The notes below the pieces were generated by a model, which saw only the letters and a program-made list of their open reading frames with translations, had not been told where the DNA came from and made no database searches. This document shows positions 14,146 to 24,216 of a DNA stretch of 64,000 nucleotides, piece by piece. A program made the position numbers and the translations under genes. The DNA comes from Thermocrinis ruber (GTDB lineage: Bacteria > Aquificota > Aquificia > Aquificales > Aquificaceae). The number at the start of each line of letters is the position of its first letter. The first letter of the stretch is position 1. The DNA is taken from NCBI RefSeq assembly GCF_000512735.1, contig NZ_CP007028.1, positions 930,001-994,000 on the forward strand, written 5' to 3'.

Positions 14146-14714
14146 GGGTCCCCTCTCATGTGGTAGCACCTCTGTTCCCAAAAGCCCGGGACATCCTCCT
14201 TTAATATCTCAAGCCCCCACACATACTTGGCACTCTTCCAAGCGTAGAGCTTGGGAACCACGAGCCTTAGAGGATAGCCATGCCTTTTGGGAATCACTTG
14301 CCCCATCATCTTGTAAGCTAAGATGGTGTCCTCTTCATAGAGATATTCCAAGGGTAGGTTGGTGGTGTAGCCCTCCAAACAGTGCACCAAGACAAAGCGC
14401 GCACTGTCCTTTGGCTTTGCCCTTTTGAGAATTTCAAGGGTCTGAACGCCTTCCCATAGGATCTCCTTAACACTCCACCGTGTAACGCAGTGAAAGTCCG
14501 CCACCAGCTCCACCGAGGGCAAAGAAAGAAGCTCCTCGTAGGTTAACTCCAAAGGCTCCTCCACCTCACCCCAAACCTTGAACCTGTATGAGCCCATATC
14601 CCAGTTGGGAATATCATCCACTATGTCGTAGACTATGGGTGCGGAGATCCACCTCTGCCCAGGCGGTAGCCGGTCTTCCCTGAGGTTTATATCGCTAACA
14701 ATTCTTTTCTTCAT
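14121..14714 (-). CDS. Molybdopterin-dependent oxidoreductase, sulfite oxidase family
   Basis: A 197-residue single Moco domain with the ligating cysteine at position 76 (VADFHCVTRWS) and GYPLRLVVP and WGLEI further on, as in small sulfite-oxidase-like proteins. There is no Tat or Sec signal, no dimerisation domain and no haem domain, so it is likely a cytosolic stand-alone Moco enzyme. The substrate is unknown; sulfite or another S/N-oxide is a guess from family. It is divergent from the small zinc-ribbon gene with 20 bases between them. Confidence 0.85.
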   Translation of the reverse strand: MKKRIVSDINLREDRLPPGQRWISAPIVYDIVDDIPNWDMGSYRFKVWGEVEEPLELTYEELLSLPSVELVADFHCVTRWSVKEILWEGVQTLEILKRAKPKDSARFVLVHCLEGYTTNLPLEYLYEEDTILAYKMMGQVIPKRHGYPLRLVVPKLYAWKSAKYVWGLEILKEDVPGFWEQRCYHMRGDPWKEERYW

Positions 14715-14734
14715 GGCAGAATAAATTTTAAAAG

Positions 14735-14947
14735 ATGGAAACTTGCCCCAAATGCGGAAGGCTTTTAGAGGTTATTGAGTGCTGTGGTGGTGGCATTTTC
14801 CTGTGCCCCAAGTGTAATGAGTACTTCTACCCGGGAGAACTCATAGACCCTCAAAGTCCCTCTGAGGAGGTCTCAAAAGAAGCTCCCGGGCTACCTTCAG
14901 AGGTTCTTCCCCCTCCACCACCACACGATAAACCGCCCAAGAGATAG
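14735..14947 (+). CDS. Small zinc-ribbon protein overlapping gpsA
   Basis: Seventy residues: METCPKCGRLLEV, then IECCGGG and LCPKCNEYF form a compact zinc ribbon in the first 35 residues, followed by a proline-rich tail (PPPPPHDKPPK). The final 107 bases run antisense through the 3' end of gpsA. The zinc-binding part lies outside the overlap, so the gene is plausible, while the tail may be a by-product of the gpsA antisense frame. No ribosome-binding site is obvious; transcription would be divergent from the Moco gene. Confidence 0.55.
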   Translation: METCPKCGRLLEVIECCGGGIFLCPKCNEYFYPGELIDPQSPSEEVSKEAPGLPSEVLPPPPPHDKPPKR

Positions 14948-15824
14948 GTGCGTATAAGCCGAGCTTTTCTGAAAGCTCCTTTACCGCCTTTACCGTTTCT
15001 TTGCCCTCCACCACCTGCCCTATTTTTTCCTGTGCCTGTTCAAGGCTTAGCCCTTGTCCCAGCAAAAAGCCAAAGGTTCTGTTTCTTGACTTGGAGGAGG
15101 TGGAAGTCAAAACCAAGTCTCCCAAGCCAGAAAGTCCGTAAAAGGTTTGTGCCTTTCCACCCAAGGCGGTGCCCAACCTAACCATCTCCACAAGCCCCCG
15201 GGTGATAAGACCAGCCCTTGCGTTGTCTCCAAAGCCAAGCCCGTCAGATATACCGCATGCTATGGCAATCACATTCTTTAACGCTCCCCCAAGCTCCACA
15301 CCCACTATGTCCTCCGAAAGATAAACCCTAAAGAGCTCCGAGGAAAAGAGCTGCCTCACCTCCCTCAGAAGCGCCACATCCTCCCCCGCCAGCACCACCG
15401 CACAGGGAAGTCCCTTTGCAGTTTCCTCCGCAAAGGAGGGACCAGAGAGGGCAAGAACTTTACAATCTGGGAAAAGCTCCTTTAAAACCTCAGAGACCCT
15501 CTTGTTGGTGCCCACCTCCAAACCCTTTGACGCAGATATAAAGATTTTTCCCTTTATGCTTTTCCCTTCAAGCACCTTTCTTATGACCTGCACGGGCAAA
15601 GCTATAAGTATGTACTGGGAAAAGTCTAAGGCTTCCTCCAAGTGGGTGGTAGCAAAGGGCTTTTTTTCAAATTCTATACCCCAATAAGGGTCCTTCCCTT
15701 CCTTGAGGGCTTCCACCACGAAAGGATTTTTGTCAAAAAGCATAACCTCATTGCCCTTCCGAGATAGAACGAGCCCCAGGGCAGTGCCCCACCTTCCCGC
15801 TCCCAAGATGGCAACTTTACTCAT
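14841..15824 (-). CDS. gpsA: Glycerol-3-phosphate dehydrogenase [NAD(P)+]
   Basis: The Rossmann motif GAGRWGTA is at 8-15, and KNVIAIACGISDGLGFGDN carries the conserved catalytic lysine and substrate region. It makes sn-glycerol-3-phosphate for phospholipid synthesis. The ATG at 15824 overlaps the recJ end by eight bases; an in-frame TTG two codons earlier is less likely. Length 327 residues is normal. It is the third gene of the murC-recJ-gpsA operon. Confidence 0.95.
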   Translation of the reverse strand: MSKVAILGAGRWGTALGLVLSRKGNEVMLFDKNPFVVEALKEGKDPYWGIEFEKKPFATTHLEEALDFSQYILIALPVQVIRKVLEGKSIKGKIFISASKGLEVGTNKRVSEVLKELFPDCKVLALSGPSFAEETAKGLPCAVVLAGEDVALLREVRQLFSSELFRVYLSEDIVGVELGGALKNVIAIACGISDGLGFGDNARAGLITRGLVEMVRLGTALGGKAQTFYGLSGLGDLVLTSTSSKSRNRTFGFLLGQGLSLEQAQEKIGQVVEGKETVKAVKELSEKLGLYAPISWAVYRVVVEGEEPLKVARELLLRPPQRDFEGL

Positions 15825-17448
15825 GGGCAAAGTCCAAAAGGTGTAGTCTCTTTGGTCTCGTAAGGTCTATTTGATAGACCACCTTCCCCTTCAGCCTTTC
15901 TAAGCCTAAGAGCTTTCTGTTTAGGTCTTTGTCCCAAGAGATAAAGCTAAAGCCTGAGGGAGTTTTAAGCTCAAGCCTGTTTTCGTCGTAATTCTTTGGT
16001 ATCAGCTCGCACTCGCACATAAAGGTGGGCGGAGGGAATCCTTCCCCAAAGGGTTCCAAGCTGTGTAGCTTTTTTATAAGCTCGGGAGTGATCCTTTCCA
16101 AGGAGAGGGGCGCATCTATCTCAAGGATCGTGGAAGAAGGCTCCACATCCTTTAGGCTCTCCTCCACCAGGTCCATAAACAGCCCCAACTTTTCCTTTTC
16201 CATGCTCAAGCCCATGGCGTAAGAGTGTCCTCCCCACTTCAGGTAAAGGTGGGAAAACTGACTTAGCAGTGAATACACATCTATGCCGTTGGCACTTCTT
16301 ACGGAACCTACTGCCTGATCACCCACCGCAAAGACCGCAGTGGGCTTTTGAAACTCCGCAGAGAGCCTACCCGCCACCAACCCCGCCACACCACCCGCCC
16401 AACTATCAAGCACTACCACCAAAAACTTCCTGTCCTTCTGAGAGAGGGCTTGCTTTAGGGCAAGTTCATATGCCCTTTCACTTATGAGCCTTCTCCTTTG
16501 GTTTATCTCCTCTATCCTGTTGGCAAGGGACCTTGCCCTGTCTGGATCCTCCGTCAGGAACAGCTTTAGGGCTACGGAGGGTCTTGAGACTCTACCGGGT
16601 GCGTTTAGCCTTGGCACTATAGAAAAGGTTATATCCCTTGAGGTTATAGTTCCGTTGAGTCCCACCCTTTCCATGAGGGCTTTTATTCCGTAAGCCTTTA
16701 TCTGACCCTTCTGCACGTACTCCAAACACTTTATGCCGTAGGAAACTATTATCCGGTTTGTTAAGTTCAGTGGCATAAAGTCTGCCAAGGTGCCTATGGC
16801 GGGTAAGTAAATGTCCAACCTTGGGTCGTAATCTATGTTTAACTCTCTGGTAAGAAGGGCTATAAGGTAAAAGACCAAGCCCACAGAAGATAGCTCCTTA
16901 AGTTCCTTGGGTAAATCCTGAGAGAGTTTTGGATTCAGCAGTATGGCTGGAGGGAGCTCCTCTCCCACGTTGTGATGGTCTATTACCACTGCATCCCTTT
17001 TGAACTCCCTGAGCTCCTCTACTGCGGTGGTGCCGTTGTCTATGGTTATCAAAAGGTCTGCGTAGTGGGAGAGTTTATCAACGAGCCTTTTGTTTAGACC
17101 GTAGCCCGACTGCCTGCTGGGAAGTAGCGGGACCACCGTTATGGGAAAGTTCTTCAAAAATCTGTAGAGCAGTGCGGTGCCAGTGATCCCATCCACATCG
17201 TAATCCCCAAAGAGCACAATCCTTTCTCTTTTATCTATCGCCTTCTTTATTCTTTCCACCGCCAGGTCTATGTTTGGTATGCGGTGAGGTGGAAGGAGTC
17301 TTTTGAGCCGAAGGTCCAAGATGGACTGATCCTGCCCTCTGTTGGCAAGAATTTGAGCAACAACCTCACCCAGTTCAGAGACCACATCTTCCTCGGGCTT
17401 TATTATCTCGCTTAAAAGAACCCACTCTTTACCCGACAACCCTTTCAT
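15817..17448 (-). CDS. recJ: Single-stranded-DNA exonuclease RecJ
   Basis: DHH phosphoesterase motifs are GDYDVDGITG (81-90), TIDNGT (135-140) and the DHH triad at 157-159. The DHHA1 motif GGHSYAMGLS lies about two thirds along, and an OB-like C-terminal region follows. At 543 residues it is compact but complete. It degrades single-stranded DNA 5' to 3' in recombination and mismatch repair. It overlaps murC by 20 bases and gpsA by eight, so the three genes are co-translated. Confidence 0.95.
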   Translation of the reverse strand: MKGLSGKEWVLLSEIIKPEEDVVSELGEVVAQILANRGQDQSILDLRLKRLLPPHRIPNIDLAVERIKKAIDKRERIVLFGDYDVDGITGTALLYRFLKNFPITVVPLLPSRQSGYGLNKRLVDKLSHYADLLITIDNGTTAVEELREFKRDAVVIDHHNVGEELPPAILLNPKLSQDLPKELKELSSVGLVFYLIALLTRELNIDYDPRLDIYLPAIGTLADFMPLNLTNRIIVSYGIKCLEYVQKGQIKAYGIKALMERVGLNGTITSRDITFSIVPRLNAPGRVSRPSVALKLFLTEDPDRARSLANRIEEINQRRRLISERAYELALKQALSQKDRKFLVVVLDSWAGGVAGLVAGRLSAEFQKPTAVFAVGDQAVGSVRSANGIDVYSLLSQFSHLYLKWGGHSYAMGLSMEKEKLGLFMDLVEESLKDVEPSSTILEIDAPLSLERITPELIKKLHSLEPFGEGFPPPTFMCECELIPKNYDENRLELKTPSGFSFISWDKDLNRKLLGLERLKGKVVYQIDLTRPKRLHLLDFAHE

Positions 17449-18787
17449 TCAAAAATTCCTCCGCCCACTTGCCAATGCTTCCCGCTCCCATAAAGACCAG
17501 CACACAGTCCCTTAAGTTCTCCTCCAGATAGGAAAACACCTCCTCCTTGGTGGGTAAATAAATGGCTCCACTTTTCTGAGCCAAGTCCTCTGCCCTTACA
17601 CCCCAAAGGTTCTCCTCTCCGGCGGAGTATATGTCCGTTAGGATGCAAAGGTCTGCGGATTTTAAAACCTCCGCAAACTCATCAAAGAGATAGTAGGTCC
17701 TTGAATACCTGTGTGGTTGAAAGACAAGGACTATTTCCTTTTGAGGATAAAGCTCCCTCAGGCTATTCAGCACAGCCCTTATTTCCGTAGGATGGTGTCC
17801 GTAATCGTCATAGACCAAACAACCCTTTATTTCGCCCTTTAGCTCTAACCTTCTCTCCGCATTTTTAAAGCTCTCCAGTGCCTCAAAAATCACCTTTGGT
17901 GGAATATCCATCTCTAAGCATACGCTTATGCAAGCTAAGGCATTATAAACATTGTGCCTGCCCGGAACTCCAAGCATTACCCTGCCCAAAGGTTTATCCT
18001 TGTGTAGCACCTCAAAGGTGTAATGTCCGTTTTTCAAAGTCAGCCCAACAGCCCTAACCTGTGCGTGCTCCTCAACACCGTATGTAATTACCCTCCTTGA
18101 GATCTTCGGCAAAAGTTCTCTGCTATTTTGGTCATCCAAGTTTATAACGGAAAAGCCATAGAAGGGCACGCTGTTGGCAAACTCCAAAAAGGCATTCTTT
18201 ATATCCTCCAGGTCCTTGTAAAAGCCCAAATGCTCCCTGTCTATGTTGGTGATCACCGCAACCGTTGGATGCAGTTTTAAAAAAGAACCGTCGCTTTCAT
18301 CCGCCTCAGAGACAATAAGGTTGTCCTTTCCAAGCTTTGCGTTGCTACCAAACCTTTTTAGAATACCACCTACTATAACCGTTGGGTCGTAGCCCGCCTC
18401 GTGCATCACATGTGCTATCATTGACGTGGTTGTGGTCTTTCCGTGAGATCCACAGACCGCTATACCCTCCCTCAGGCGAAAGAGCTCCGCCAACATTTCC
18501 CCCCGAGGGATCGCAGGAATGCCCCTCTCCCTTGCCCCTTTCACCTCCGGGTTGTCCATAGAAACCGCCGAAGAATAAACCACCACCTGCGCATCCCCCA
18601 AGTTTTCCTCCCTGTGTCCTATAAACACCTTTGCCCCCATACTCCTCAAAAGTTCCGTGTTTTTGTTCTCCCTTAGGTCCGAGCCGGAGACCCTGTAGCC
18701 CATCTGCAAGAGCACCTGCGCGATACCGCTCATACCTATCCCACCAATACCCACAAAGTGGAAGTTTTTTATCTTTTCCCTGAACAT
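17429..18787 (-). CDS. murC: UDP-N-acetylmuramate--L-alanine ligase
   Basis: A Mur ligase of 452 residues: N-terminal GIGGIGMSG (13-21), ATP loop GSHGKTTTT (113-121), DEADESDGS-type motif SEADESDGS, and YDDYGHHPTE in the C-terminal part. It adds L-alanine to UDP-MurNAc in peptidoglycan synthesis. It is the first gene of its operon; five bases separate it from the divergent DUF202 gene, so the promoters must lie within or across the gene ends. Confidence 0.97.
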   Translation of the reverse strand: MFREKIKNFHFVGIGGIGMSGIAQVLLQMGYRVSGSDLRENKNTELLRSMGAKVFIGHREENLGDAQVVVYSSAVSMDNPEVKGARERGIPAIPRGEMLAELFRLREGIAVCGSHGKTTTTSMIAHVMHEAGYDPTVIVGGILKRFGSNAKLGKDNLIVSEADESDGSFLKLHPTVAVITNIDREHLGFYKDLEDIKNAFLEFANSVPFYGFSVINLDDQNSRELLPKISRRVITYGVEEHAQVRAVGLTLKNGHYTFEVLHKDKPLGRVMLGVPGRHNVYNALACISVCLEMDIPPKVIFEALESFKNAERRLELKGEIKGCLVYDDYGHHPTEIRAVLNSLRELYPQKEIVLVFQPHRYSRTYYLFDEFAEVLKSADLCILTDIYSAGEENLWGVRAEDLAQKSGAIYLPTKEEVFSYLEENLRDCVLVFMGAGSIGKWAEEFLNERVVG

Positions 18788-18792
18788 AGCAA

Positions 18793-19560
18793 ATGTATTT
18801 TAAATATAAGTTTTACTTACGGTGTGAGAGTTATGCTTCCCTCCTGTCAAATCCTTCGTTAAAGTTTGAACCAGGCTTTTGCACTGTATTATTATGTTTC
18901 TTGACCATGCTTATAGCTAAGCATCTTCCCTCCGCAAAAGATGCTCGCATATACATGTCTGTTGAAAGAACCTATTTAGGTTATATAAGGTTTTCCCTTT
19001 ACACCCTGTCTTTTGCGGTTTTTCTGAGGAAGCTGGAGGCACTCGCAGATATAACGCAGAAGATACACGTATCCGTATTTTTGGAAACTGTGGCTATAGC
19101 TTTGTCCATAGTGGGCACTTTCCTTATAATCGCAGGCATTCTTACTTTTTATTCTGATATAAGATACATAGAAGGAGGTATAGAAGTGTCTCCGAAGGAA
19201 ACCACTGACCCAAGGATCTATATGGCTGCGGAAAGGACATTCCTTGCATGGATAAGAACTTCTATAGCTTTAATAGTCTTTGGCTTTGTTATAGAAAAGT
19301 TTGAATTCTTCTTAGAACAGTTAGAGAAGGTTTTCAACATGTCCCTAAAGGGTGATCACAGGGCTCTTGCCGGTGTGGGAGTTTTCATAATATTTATAGG
19401 ACTGTTCACGCTCATACTTGGTGCCATAAACTTTTATAGGACCATAAAGCAGGTGGACATGGGTTATTATAGAACAAACACGTGGCTTTATAAAATTTAC
19501 GGTGCTGTAATATTCTTTGCGTGTTTGGTGCTAACCCTTTATGTTCTTAAGATCATTTAA
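18793..19560 (+). CDS. Membrane protein with two DUF202-like domains
   Basis: Two copies of the DUF202 motif occur: DARIYMSVERTYLGYIRFSL in the first half and DPRIYMAAERTFLAWIRTSI in the second. Each is followed by two hydrophobic spans, and a last span ends the protein, so about five to six transmembrane helices in total. Ordinary DUF202 proteins carry one domain. Two starts are possible: the ATG at 18793 and the ATG at 18907 that begins MLIAKHLPSAKD. Neither has a good ribosome-binding site, and the second fits the family better. Function unknown. Confidence 0.75.
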   Translation: MYFKYKFYLRCESYASLLSNPSLKFEPGFCTVLLCFLTMLIAKHLPSAKDARIYMSVERTYLGYIRFSLYTLSFAVFLRKLEALADITQKIHVSVFLETVAIALSIVGTFLIIAGILTFYSDIRYIEGGIEVSPKETTDPRIYMAAERTFLAWIRTSIALIVFGFVIEKFEFFLEQLEKVFNMSLKGDHRALAGVGVFIIFIGLFTLILGAINFYRTIKQVDMGYYRTNTWLYKIYGAVIFFACLVLTLYVLKII

Positions 19561-19711
19561 CAAAAAAGGAAGTTCTTCATCTCTGAAGTCCGTTGATATG
19601 TTTGCGATGGGACTTTTCAGGCTTTTTTGAATCTTTCATCCAAGCTATAGTTCAATTTACGGACTTCATATTTCATTTTTTGGTGCTTTTTATTCAACCT
19701 TCCTTATAATC

Positions 19712-19740
19712 TTGACAAAATCAAAAAAATATGTTAAAAT
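19712..19740 (+). promoter_or_regulatory. Consensus promoter of the coiled-coil/helicase operon
   Basis: TTGACA at 19712-19717, 17 bases, TAAAAT at 19735-19740, then GGAT/AGAGG sequences before the ATG at 19774. It lies in a 213-base AT-rich gap that otherwise shows no gene. Confidence 0.8.
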
Positions 19741-19773
19741 AAAAGCAACAATAAAATAGCAGAGGATTAAGAG

Positions 19774-20490
19774 ATGCTAACACAGGGGGAGTTCTGGATT
19801 CTTGTACTTGTAGGGCTTTTAATAGCTAACTTAGTATTTCGGTTTTATGTAAGGCTGGATCTTGATAAAAAGATGAACGAGCTTTTGCAAGAAGTAAAGG
19901 GTGTAAAGGAAAACCTAGCTAATGATAAAAACGTAAGTGAGCTCCTAAGGGAAGTGAAGAGCATAAAGGAAAGTTTGCTTTATGTAAAACAAGATTTTGA
20001 TAAAAGGATGATTGAACTCTTGCAGGAAGTAAGTGATATTAAAACGGGTAAAAATGCAAGCGAACTTGTGCAGCAAGTAAAAGATGTAAAGGAAAATCTA
20101 ATTCATATACAACAAAACTTTGGCAATAAACTGATGGATCTTTTACAGGAAGTAAATGATATTAAAGGGCGTTTGATATTAGATCTTGATAAAAAAGTAA
20201 GCAAGCTTTCGCAAGAAGTAGAGGGTATACAAGTAAAGGATATAAAGGAAAACTTAATTCATATGCAGCAGAACTTTGACAAGAAACTGGCAGAGCTTTT
20301 GCAGGAAGTGAATGATATTAAGGTGCGTTTAATATTGGAACTTGATAAAAAGATGGACAAGCTTTCACAAGAAGTAGAGAACATAAGGGAAGGAATGGAA
20401 CAATTAGAACAACAAACAAAGGAACGCATGGAACGTATAGCTAAGCTTTTGACGGAGCCTATATTTGATGAAGACCAACTGAAGATATGA
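19774..20490 (+). CDS. Membrane-anchored coiled-coil protein, long paralogue
   Basis: One N-terminal transmembrane helix (WILVLVGLLIANLVFRF, about 8-24) is followed by about 200 residues of heptad-rich coiled coil and a short acidic tail ending DEDQLKI. A 52-residue unit is repeated in tandem (VKDVKENLIHIQQNF... and VKDIKENLIHMQQNF...; DNA 20077-20232 and 20233-20388, 156 bases each), with a more diverged unit before it. Both ends closely match the next gene, so the two are paralogues that differ mainly in coil length. No enzymatic motif. It is the first gene of the operon that encodes the helicase-nuclease. A role as a membrane tether or length-variable scaffold is inference. Confidence 0.75.
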   Translation: MLTQGEFWILVLVGLLIANLVFRFYVRLDLDKKMNELLQEVKGVKENLANDKNVSELLREVKSIKESLLYVKQDFDKRMIELLQEVSDIKTGKNASELVQQVKDVKENLIHIQQNFGNKLMDLLQEVNDIKGRLILDLDKKVSKLSQEVEGIQVKDIKENLIHMQQNFDKKLAELLQEVNDIKVRLILELDKKMDKLSQEVENIREGMEQLEQQTKERMERIAKLLTEPIFDEDQLKI

Positions 20491-20538
20491 TCAATGTAGA
20501 TCATGCGTGTTAAGATAGAATAGCTGGAGGTTTAAAAG

Positions 20539-20940
20539 ATGCCCACTCAGGGGGATTTTTGGATTCTGATGCTCATAGGACTTTTAATAGCCAATTTGGC
20601 ACTGCTGTTTTATGTAAAGTTGGATTTTGATAAAAAGGTAGGCGGGCTTTCGCAGGAAGTAAAGGGTGTAAAGGAAAGTCTGCTTTATGTAAAACAAGAT
20701 TTTGATGAAAGGATTGGTGAGCTTTTGCAGGAAGTAGTTGACATTTTTGATGAAAAGATTGTTGAACTTATGCAGGAAATAAATGGCATAAAGGCAAACG
20801 ATATAAGAGAAATTAGAGAAAAGATAGAAAAACTGAATACAAAAATGGAGCAATTAGAACAACAAACAAGGGAACGTATAGACCATATAGCCAAGCTTTT
20901 AACGGAACCTATCCTTGACGAAAGCGAGCTAAAGATATGA
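20539..20940 (+). CDS. Membrane-anchored coiled-coil protein, short paralogue
   Basis: A 133-residue protein with the same plan as its neighbour: a transmembrane helix (WILMLIGLLIANLALLFY), about 90 residues of coiled coil, and the tail EQLEQQTRERIDHIAKLLTE with the acidic end DESELKI. AGCTGGAGG precedes the ATG. Its stop overlaps the start of the helicase gene (ATGA), which ties its translation to the helicase. The function is unknown. Conservation of both termini between the paralogues suggests that the tail contacts a shared partner, perhaps the helicase. Confidence 0.75.
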   Translation: MPTQGDFWILMLIGLLIANLALLFYVKLDFDKKVGGLSQEVKGVKESLLYVKQDFDERIGELLQEVVDIFDEKIVELMQEINGIKANDIREIREKIEKLNTKMEQLEQQTRERIDHIAKLLTEPILDESELKI

Positions 20941-21261
20941 TCAACATAGACGATGTTCTAAAGTATCTGAAATATCTGAAAGAGTTAAGCAGAAAGATAG
21001 GCACAAGGGTTGATTTTTCCTACATTGAGGGTAGAAGGGGAAGAAAGAAGCAGGAGTTGGACTTTTTGTTTATTGAAGAAGATTGGCACATAGAAAAGGA
21101 GGTGGAGCTTGCAGACAGAAAAAATCTGAGAATTTTCATTAGCAGTAGAGCAAATCAGCTAAGGTCAGGTAAAGCCCTTTTCTTAGGGGTGGGGCTTTTT
21201 AAACATTCTGAAGTTGAGAACGATAAGCCAAACGAAAAGGCAAAGAAGGCTAAAAATTTTT
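20937..21261 (+). pseudogene. Helicase-nuclease gene, N-terminal part before frameshift 1
   Basis: The first 108 or so codons of a large SF1 helicase gene, starting at the ATG of an ATGA overlap. In this frame the reading ends at 21281 in a short unnatural tail, CSYFCD. At the run AAAAATTTTT (21252-21261) the protein continues one base out of frame as KIFAPIFVINLEVDD. Removing a single base from the run would restore one continuous protein. The domain has a YIEGRRGRKKQELDFLF segment and is not recognisable as a known fold. Confidence 0.7.
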
Positions 21262-23142
21262 GCTCCTATTTTTGTGATTAATTTAGAAGTAGATGACCTA
21301 AGCGACCCAAAATCCGTAAGCTTGGGACAGACCTTTTTAAACTACGACCTATTCGTAAAACTTTCTCCTGATGACGAAGAAGATAACTCTTCATCCGAAA
21401 AACATCTGGAGCGTGTAGAGCTTATAAAGGAAATTGAAGAAAAAATGGAGGAAGCTGAGTCAATAACAGAACTGAGAAACATAGCCATTGAATACATTCC
21501 CAAAATAAAAGAAGTGTTTAAACCAGAACTTGAAGTGAAAATAATAAAGAACAATGAGTTTGAAGAAGGTCAAAAAGATATAGACTATTTGAGAAGCATA
21601 GAGGATACTTTTTATGCGGATTTATGCTATATTTTCCTTTCCAATTTTCCGTCAGAAATCTCCACATACAATTCTTTAAGGCTTATGATAGAGGAAATTG
21701 AAGAAAACAGAAGCTTTACAAACAGGGCTTTAGAAAAGCTATTCAGTGCGGTATTCTCTTCCAGATCAGAAAAAATACAAGAAATAGAAAAATTTAGGTT
21801 GGGAGATTTGGAATATTACTTACCGATATATCTTTCTAAAAAGCAAAAAGAGGGATTGGAGAATGCCATTCGCTATGAGATTTCTTACATTCAAGGACCA
21901 CCTGGCACTGGTAAAAGCCATGTTATAACCGCTTTGGCACTTTTGAGTATTCTTAAAGGCTACAAAGTTTTAATAGTTTCCCAAAAAGCTCCCGCCATAA
22001 AGGTTTTATACGAAAAGCTAACGGAAAAGCTTGGGAAGGGAGACGATTATTTACCGTTTATCTATTACCATGACGATTACAGAGGGAAGCTTAAAGAATA
22101 CATTTCCAAGCTAACATCGTATAATGTTCATGAATATGAACTACTTAATCTTCAAACTAAGTTAAAGAACTTAGAAATCAGACTCAATTCAAGCATAGAG
22201 GAGTACAAGAGAAGGCTTAAGCAGTACAAGGAAATATTGAGTTTAAACTATGAATTTTCGGATGTTAGGCAGAGCTTAGCAAGGGAATTGGAAATATTCA
22301 ACAGAAGCTTTTATGAAATAACCAGAAAGATAGGTTTGTATAGTAGAAATTTGAATGAAAGCTTTTTTGATACAAATTATAGAACTTTTGAAGTACTGGA
22401 AAACTGCGGAGATACAATGCTTTTGCGAATAAGAAAGAGATTCCTTATAAAGGAAATCAAAAAGATTGATAAAGATGTGGATAGCAATCTGTTAATGAGG
22501 AAGCCGTTGTCTGATTACTTAGCTAAGCTTAGAAATGTCCTTGCCAATTACAAAAAATTGGTTAATATTCGTAACAAAATTCAAACTAAAACTGACCCAA
22601 ATGAGCTGAAGGAAGAGCTTGAGGTTCGCCGTAAGCAAATAATGGAAGATGCACAAGAATATTTAAGACTGCTTAACCAGAAAAGGATATTTGAAAATGC
22701 AAGGGAATACCTAACTGACTTAAACACTTTTAAACAGATTTTGCACTATCAAAAGGTTGATAGGATAAAAAAGGCAAAGGATAACGTAAACTGGGCTAAT
22801 CTGTTAGAGGTTTTTAACATTTGGATTGTAGATATCCCCAGCGTGGACAGAGTACTCCCTATGGAGCCTGAGCTGTTTGATCTGGTAGTGGTTGATGAGT
22901 CCTCTCAGGTAAATCTGGCACAGGTTATCCCTGTTTTTTACAGGGCGAAAAGGATTTGTGTTGTTGGAGACCACAAGCAATTGAGCCTTGAATCCACTGG
23001 GCTTGGATTTGAGATAAGCAACAAGCTTGATTCATACACTTGGGAAAAATATAAGCCTGCAAACCTGAGTTATGAAGAAGCGAAGGAAAAGAGAATAACC
23101 CTTACTAAGGCGTCTATCCTTGACTTTTTGAGGGAAAAATAA
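21250..23142 (+). pseudogene. SF1 helicase core (motifs I-III), between two frameshifts
   Basis: This part holds a Q-like motif (LSKKQKEGLENAI), Walker A GPPGTGKS near 21897-21920, motif II VVVDESSQ near 22880, and motif III VVGDHKQLSL. It is of the Dna2/UPF1-like SF1 type. A long coiled-coil insert of about 250 residues lies between motifs I and II. The frame has no proper start of its own; the only way to translate it in full is by joining the preceding fragment. It ends at a TAA produced at a run of five A's (23135-23139), beyond which the protein continues in another frame. Confidence 0.75.
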
Positions 23143-24172
23143 TTTCGGAATACCTGAGGTAATGTTGGACGAACATTTCAGGTCTGTTCCCTCTCTCGCA
23201 AGGTTCACCAACAGAGAATTTTACGAAAACAAACTGTCCATAATGACAGAAAAACCCGAGTACGAGCTTTATAAAAACTTCAAGCACATAGAAACAGGAG
23301 GGCGTAGGTATGGAAGTTCAAAATTTGTTATAGAAGAAGAGGAAAAGGTTTTTGAGATCATAAAGAGCCTTCTAAGCTCAAGGAGCTATCAGGAGGTTCA
23401 GTTGCCTGATTATGTCCCAGAGGAATTCACCATAGGGGTTGTTTGCTTTACAAGGGAACAATCGGAAAGAATAAAAATAAGACTTTTTGAAGAAGGAATT
23501 GGAGAAAGAGTTTATGCAGGCACTCCAGAGGAACTTCAGGGTCATGAGTTTGATGTGGTAATAATTTCAATGGCACTGGATAAGGCAAGTAACAGGAGTA
23601 AAAACCACTATGAAAACAAAAACAGGTTTAACGTGGCAACAAGTAGGGCTAAGTATTTTACCTTTTTAGTCTATGGAGGTTTGCCGGAAAACTTTGATTT
23701 AACTAAAAGATACATAGCCCACTTTAGTGAAGAAAAACCCAATGTGGCTTTGGATGAGGATAACATCCACTTTAGTCGGTTTAAATTTGAATCGGAGCTT
23801 GAAGAGTTTGTTTATGAAAGGTGTTTAGTGCCCTTAAAAGAAAGCTTCAAGCGGGAATATGGAGTAGACATTGAAATATACAACCAATATAAAACCTGTG
23901 GTTATAGGTTGGACTTTGTTCTTTACAATAAACACAATAAAAAATTTGTTGCTTTAGAGGTTGATGGTCCTCATCACTTTGAGGGGGATGGATTGCATAG
24001 CTATGCGGACTGGCACGTGGAAAGGATAGAAAAACTAAAGTGGGCTGGCTGGAACATAATAAACACGCCCTATTATAAGTGGTATTCGGAGGGCTGGTTG
24101 GACCAAGACCATCCCACCGTGAAGGGAGAGTTAGAAAGGATAAGGAAAGAATTGGAGCATTATCTCCTATAG
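23140..24172 (+). pseudogene. Helicase motifs IV-VI plus PD-(D/E)XK-type nuclease domain
   Basis: After frameshift 2 the helicase resumes with VMLDEHFRSVPSLARFTN, GTPEELQGHEFDVVIISMA and RFNVATSRAKYF, the remaining SF1 motifs. From about 23760 a C-terminal domain follows with ELEEFVYERCL, YRLDFVLYN and VALEVDGPHH, the E...D...ExDG pattern of DUF559/REase-like PD-(D/E)XK nucleases that often end Dna2-like defence helicases. From the first visible start (23162) it would make 336 residues with no ATPase. As part of the whole, about 1,075 residues would be joined from three frames. Confidence 0.75.
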
Positions 24173-24216
24173 AACATAAGCTGAACTCCGTGGTAGAATT
24201 TATAGAGTAAAAAGTC

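Follow-up and report, generated by a model that had tools for sequence, protein, structure and literature searches.

Several described systems resemble the locus analyzed here. Mokosh (MkoA/MkoB, MkoC) possesses a UPF1-like helicase core and is defined by a kinase (type I) or a PLD nuclease, fused or adjacent. Dna2 carries a UPF1-like helicase and a nuclease in one chain, the nuclease being N-terminal and of RecB type. Zorya consists of ZorAB, with a MotA/MotB-like ZorA and ZorB, together with ZorCD or ZorE. The ZorAB membrane complex has a long cytoplasmic ZorA tail that was proposed to recruit nucleases (PMC11890865). Hachiman (HamAB) is a two-gene helicase-nuclease system whose pair acts as a genome-integrity sensor (PMC12278908). 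Finally, the conflict helicases of the COG1112 type (Hhe, MTES_1575) join a DUF4011 N-domain, a UPF1-like SF1 core and a C-terminal Vsr-like REase in chains of ~1000–1900 residues; the MTES_1575 REase was described and named in a biological-conflict protein (PMC3710099).

We analyzed an operon of the hot-spring bacterium Thermocrinis ruber that lies in a stretch of 64,000 nucleotides, hereafter the window. Its features are listed below in window coordinates.

19604–24207, no strand: operon insert, present or absent between close relatives (flank matches at 19603/24208 in G001 and 19644/24208 in G006)
19712–19740, + strand: sigma-70-like promoter TTGACA-17-TAAAAT with extended -10 TG, called as a consensus match (11 of 12 positions)
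19774–20490, + strand: coil gene 1, 238 aa, with predicted N-terminal transmembrane (TM) helix, coiled coil and C-terminal KLLTEP motif
20487–20507, + strand: remnant duplicate of the helicase start, ATGATCAATGTAGATCATGCG, at the 3' end of coil gene 1; putative scar left when the coil unit was duplicated in tandem
20539–20940, + strand: coil gene 2 (133 aa), paralogous to coil gene 1
20937–21232, + strand: helicase part 1, in which the DUF4011-like N-terminal domain begins; the ORF continues out of frame to 21281
21230–21232, + strand: first frameshift, an A run with one extra base (CCAAACG versus CCGACG in the intact G005)
21233–23139, + strand: helicase part 2, remaining N-domain, SF1 motifs I–III and helical stalk
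21895–21918, + strand: Walker A motif GPPGTGKS, invariant in 13 members
23135–23139, + strand: second frameshift (AAAAA versus AAAA in the intact G005)
23140–24172, + strand: helicase part 3 (ORF from 23162), comprising SF1 motifs IV–VI (AAA_12) followed by the C-terminal nuclease
23780–24169, + strand: Vsr-like nuclease domain (MTES_1575/RAP) with RLDFV, ExDG and H

Most of what the initial annotation had read in this operon was recovered: the consensus promoter, the ATGA overlap of coil gene 2 with the helicase start at 20937, and the two paralogous coil ORFs, each with a single hydrophobic N-terminal helix followed by Pro/Gly-poor, coil-like sequence (TM and coil assignments are based on hydropathy and composition). 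The AT-richness relative to the flanking murC and aconitase genes was also confirmed, with a G+C of ~0.32–0.41 in the operon region versus ~0.45–0.54. The AT-rich stretch begins before the operon, at ~18.8 kb, within a gene whose product matches DUF202 in two stretches (18793–19560). This gene is the left neighbor of the insertion site and is kept in G001, G004 and G006. The annotated helicase-nuclease stood as regards its UPF1-like SF1 motifs and C-terminal ExDG nuclease, but not as a single intact gene: its coding sequence is divided among three ORFs, each in a different frame (20937–21281, 21214–23142 and 23162–24172).

The pieces of the window helicase matched the Pfam families AAA_11, AAA_12 and RAP/MTES_1575. 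Walker A, DExx and motifs III–VI are all present, as in the UPF1-like SF1 class (AAA_11/AAA_12, COG1112 type), and the SF1 motifs are invariant in the 13 full-length members of the family. The nuclease domain matched MTES_1575 and RAP in all 11 members tested, with the MTES_1575 matches of the window piece and of the first member falling below the Pfam gathering score. A profile search of the PDB with this domain returned nothing below E 0.04. The N-domain matched DUF4011 (PF13195) weakly in four of 15 members (best E 1.6e-7), the match being undetected in the other 11, and it appears to be a divergent DUF4011. No significant match was obtained when the fold of the isolated N-domain was searched against the PDB, and our literature search found no function assigned to DUF4011. 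For the G005 protein, modeled with AlphaFold at a mean pLDDT of 74.6, the nearest structural matches were Senataxin, Aquarius, UPF1, IGHMBP2 and Dna2, and a fold search against viral models returned just generic helicases. The N-domain is encoded by a separate ORF in G494 and G535. At L146:4276–7613 and L147:4359–7603, the DUF4011-like N-domain and the helicase-nuclease are separate overlapping ORFs, which marks a natural domain boundary.

Judging from these domains, the helicase corresponds to a short form of the conflict-helicase class: the order of domains is the same, but intact members of the family have ~1080–1110 residues and, unlike in the conflict helicases, DUF3320 or HEPN were not found. 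Hhe, an anti-phage DUF4011 protein, was rejected as an assignment, since the score was 49 bits for the middle part against an NCBIfam full-length cut-off of 2000 bits. Mokosh gave the best PADLOC score (122 bits, MkoA), but the match is confined to the helicase core, and no kinase or PLD Pfam domain was found in the window pieces or in L129. Dna2, a structural match, was set aside because the operon nuclease is C-terminal and Vsr-like rather than N-terminal and RecB-type; the gene is also accessory and paired with a membrane coil. The likeness to Zorya is one of logic (a membrane assembly whose long cytoplasmic tail would recruit a nuclease). The operon coil has one TM helix and no MotA/MotB-type channel, and an SF1 helicase with a Vsr-like nuclease stands where Zorya has ZorD or ZorE. 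Zorya was therefore rejected as well. PADLOC matches of the coil proteins were mostly to coil-tail stretches of ZorA and weak (≤27 bits). In Hachiman, the helicase and the nuclease are separate proteins; the operon encodes them as one chain, which has a membrane coil as its partner. The coil/helicase pair is not covered by any PADLOC model, and the hits that were obtained reflect just the generic helicase core or the composition of the coils. The literature searched, with subscription papers and bioRxiv preprints largely outside it, contained no pairing of a membrane coiled coil with a DUF4011/SF1 helicase-nuclease. Hhe, Mokosh, Zorya and Dna2 each failed a defining feature. The initial annotation had recognized no named system of this gene order. 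The constant membrane-coil partner is undescribed in the databases and papers searched.

In G005, a relative of the same genus, the helicase is one intact ORF of 1077 residues, with 93% amino-acid identity to the window over the C-terminal third. The alignment of the two revealed two 1-bp insertions in the window and otherwise no disruption; with its three frames, the window helicase was not retained as one gene. The dN/dS between the window helicase and this intact orthologue is 0.13, which suggests that the breaks are recent, or that they are sequencing errors. We give a minority chance, though a real one, to sequencing or assembly errors in a gene that is intact in the organism: both changes are +1 in A runs, and the low dN/dS of an otherwise undisrupted gene fits errors. 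However, one of the two runs is just AAA, the alignment of 5.35 kb of flank to G001 shows no net change in length although both shifts lie in the helicase gene, and the locus is being lost in relatives. Recent decay is thus moderately favored over sequencing error, and the copy in the T. ruber window is probably dead or dying, with loss of function predicted from its reading frames.

The two coil genes of the window bear the marks of a local event. Coil gene 1, whose coiled coil contains a 156-nt internal tandem repeat, ends in the same ATGA overlap as coil gene 2 and carries, at 20487–20507, a duplicate of ~20 bases from the very beginning of the helicase gene. This relic lies inside a 107-nt repeat (20394–20500 versus 20844–20950). 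The relic and the repeat indicate a tandem duplication of a coil-plus-helicase-start unit, from which the second coil gene appears to derive. A single coil gene adjoins the helicase in G005, whose contig begins just 99 bases upstream of it, and in every other member with readable upstream DNA. Two coils, which the initial annotation had presented as defining the operon, were therefore rejected as a conserved pair. A search of 100 relatives with the coil protein gave convincing matches only in the window genome and in G005; their divergence is too rapid for relatives of the coils to be found by sequence search. Matches of the coils to phasin, SpiroCoCo, JetC, LmuB, PD-Lambda-1 and others were attributed to coiled-coil composition, not homology. 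The C-terminal end of the coil is conserved, being of the KLLxEP type in Aquificota and STLKET in two others.

By gene order and domain content, the real unit comprises one TM-coil gene directly upstream of a gene encoding a DUF4011-like domain, a UPF1-type SF1 helicase with a long helical stalk and a Vsr-like nuclease. Excluding the window, an adjacent TM-coil gene was found in 14 of 14 loci with a complete upstream gene, in a small sample partly composed of draft genomes; for L141, L146 and L147 the start codon was chosen to leave the TM helix at the N-terminus. At a 15th locus, L140 (G378), the contig ends within the coil. The G091 copy is truncated by the end of its contig, and G089 and G012 harbor remnants. 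In contrast, an automatic scan of ORFs within 60 bases detected a TM-coil neighbor in none of 67 more distant helicases, five of which adjoin an N-terminal TM protein that is not coil-like. When the refuting condition set by the initial annotation was checked, family helicases were found neither regularly without the coil nor at fixed housekeeping positions, and the pairing of coil and helicase-nuclease was upheld as a conserved unit.

We then compared the insertion site between relatives. The genome G001 (~95% nucleotide identity in the flank) matches window positions 14250–19603 and then 24208 onward. In G006 the match breaks off after 19644 and resumes at 24208, so that both genomes present an empty site. 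In G004, an 858-residue NB-ARC-TPR protein (L160:2627–5203) occupies the same site between the DUF202 gene and aconitase; this is a single case. Proteins of the NB-ARC-TPR type are common among bacterial immune ATPases. No PADLOC model matches the G004 protein, and an NB-ARC search of the window's own genome returned nothing above the cut-off. In G012, which belongs to another genus, all that is left of the helicase is its final ~25 codons with the stop, directly before aconitase (L031:1–342), which shows that this site, too, once held the operon. Independently, a clean empty site was observed in G015: its relative G022, 97% identical, carries the operon beside rpsT, and G015 does not. About 70 bp of G015 match both edges of the G022 insert (L025:12416–12806 and L170:340–409) and may represent a direct repeat on either side of the operon; fragments of this edge sequence recur elsewhere in G015.

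The family is sparsely distributed. It was matched in nine of the 136 Aquificota genomes, including the broken copy of the window and the fragment of G089. Other members were found in Nitrospirae (L033, a MAG, and G378 from a search of that phylum), in Ignavibacteria (L034/L141, a MAG, and G451, G582, G494 and G535 from a search of that class) and in one Sumerlaeota genome (L083/L142, a MAG), and the 180-kb IMG/VR contig L129 carries the full pair. The resemblance of the helicase core to UPF1 and Dna2 would fit an ordinary, membrane-anchored helicase-nuclease of DNA repair or replication (Dna2-like). We regard this role as highly unlikely given the few genomes of the phylum that possess the family, the lack of the operon in close relatives and the NB-ARC gene standing at the same site in one of them. 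Together, the clean presence or absence, the alternative NB-ARC occupant and the patchy distribution suggest a mobile, defense-type module. This is in line with the defense-like system first suspected, of which anti-phage activity would be the expected function. Location in defense islands, which had also been raised, was not seen for most Aquificota copies, which are alone among housekeeping genes. Neighborhoods otherwise vary between members, one of which adjoins a DNA adenine methylase; this methylase and the NB-ARC occupant both count as links to defense.

Solitary and clean insertions, along with the member on the IMG/VR contig, could also point to a weapon of mobile elements, or to an anti-plasmid or anti-transformation system, rather than to an anti-phage system as such. 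This is unlikely: the phage records searched yielded no match to the family, the plasmid records yielded no full-length match (50 records contained partial helicase-core matches only), and no integrase or transposase was recognized beside the operon when its neighboring ORFs were read.

Our preferred explanation, which we consider somewhat probable, is that the window operon represents a degenerating copy of a mobile two-gene defense module with a membrane-tethered helicase-nuclease. Evidence for such tethering comes from the constant pairing, the membrane anchor and the translational overlap, and Zorya is its functional parallel. The small inner-membrane protein would anchor, by its single TM helix, a cytoplasmic coiled coil that oligomerizes at the membrane, and its conserved C-terminal motif would dock the helicase-nuclease there. 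The docked complex would then load on incoming or abnormal DNA, unwind it and cut it. The likeliest docking site would be the C-terminal end of the coil (KLLxEP-type or STLKET), a short motif drawn from the alignment. Docking, DNA as the substrate and defense against phage or other foreign DNA are thus steps that we infer.

The D...ExD catalytic residues of the nuclease are conserved in 11 of the 13 full-length members and lost in L129 and L141. At L129:4255–7907, RLDFV is changed to ELSFV and EVDG to EATG, near a photolyase-like ORF. The two members without these residues retain the coil, and the sole constant partner is a single-TM protein of oligomer type, as would be expected if the coil were itself the effector, with the helicase-nuclease sensing foreign or damaged nucleic acid and prompting the coil to breach the membrane in a response of the abortive-infection type. 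This is decidedly unlikely, however, because the nuclease motifs are retained in most members and because the length of the cytoplasmic coil and the conservation of its C-terminal motif are more in keeping with a tether than with a pore.

Returning to the tether, we more tentatively propose a previously undescribed immune system of two components, found in several phyla, including hyperthermophiles, in which an oligomeric membrane coil may dock a DUF4011-SF1-Vsr-like helicase-nuclease at the inner membrane, where it destroys entering DNA. If true, this would constitute a compact defense by membrane tethering, built from a single-TM coil and a helicase-nuclease and comparable to a minimal Zorya without the motor. 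It would also provide a setting in which DUF4011 can be tested for a role in docking or sensing. Among near-identical genomes of the Thermocrinis lineage, the locus has been gained, lost, replaced or left to decay. Finally, G023 encodes, near its family member and a reverse-gyrase-like ORF, a second and different UPF1-like SF1 helicase of 930 aa (L029:827–3619), which scores 236 bits to MkoC.
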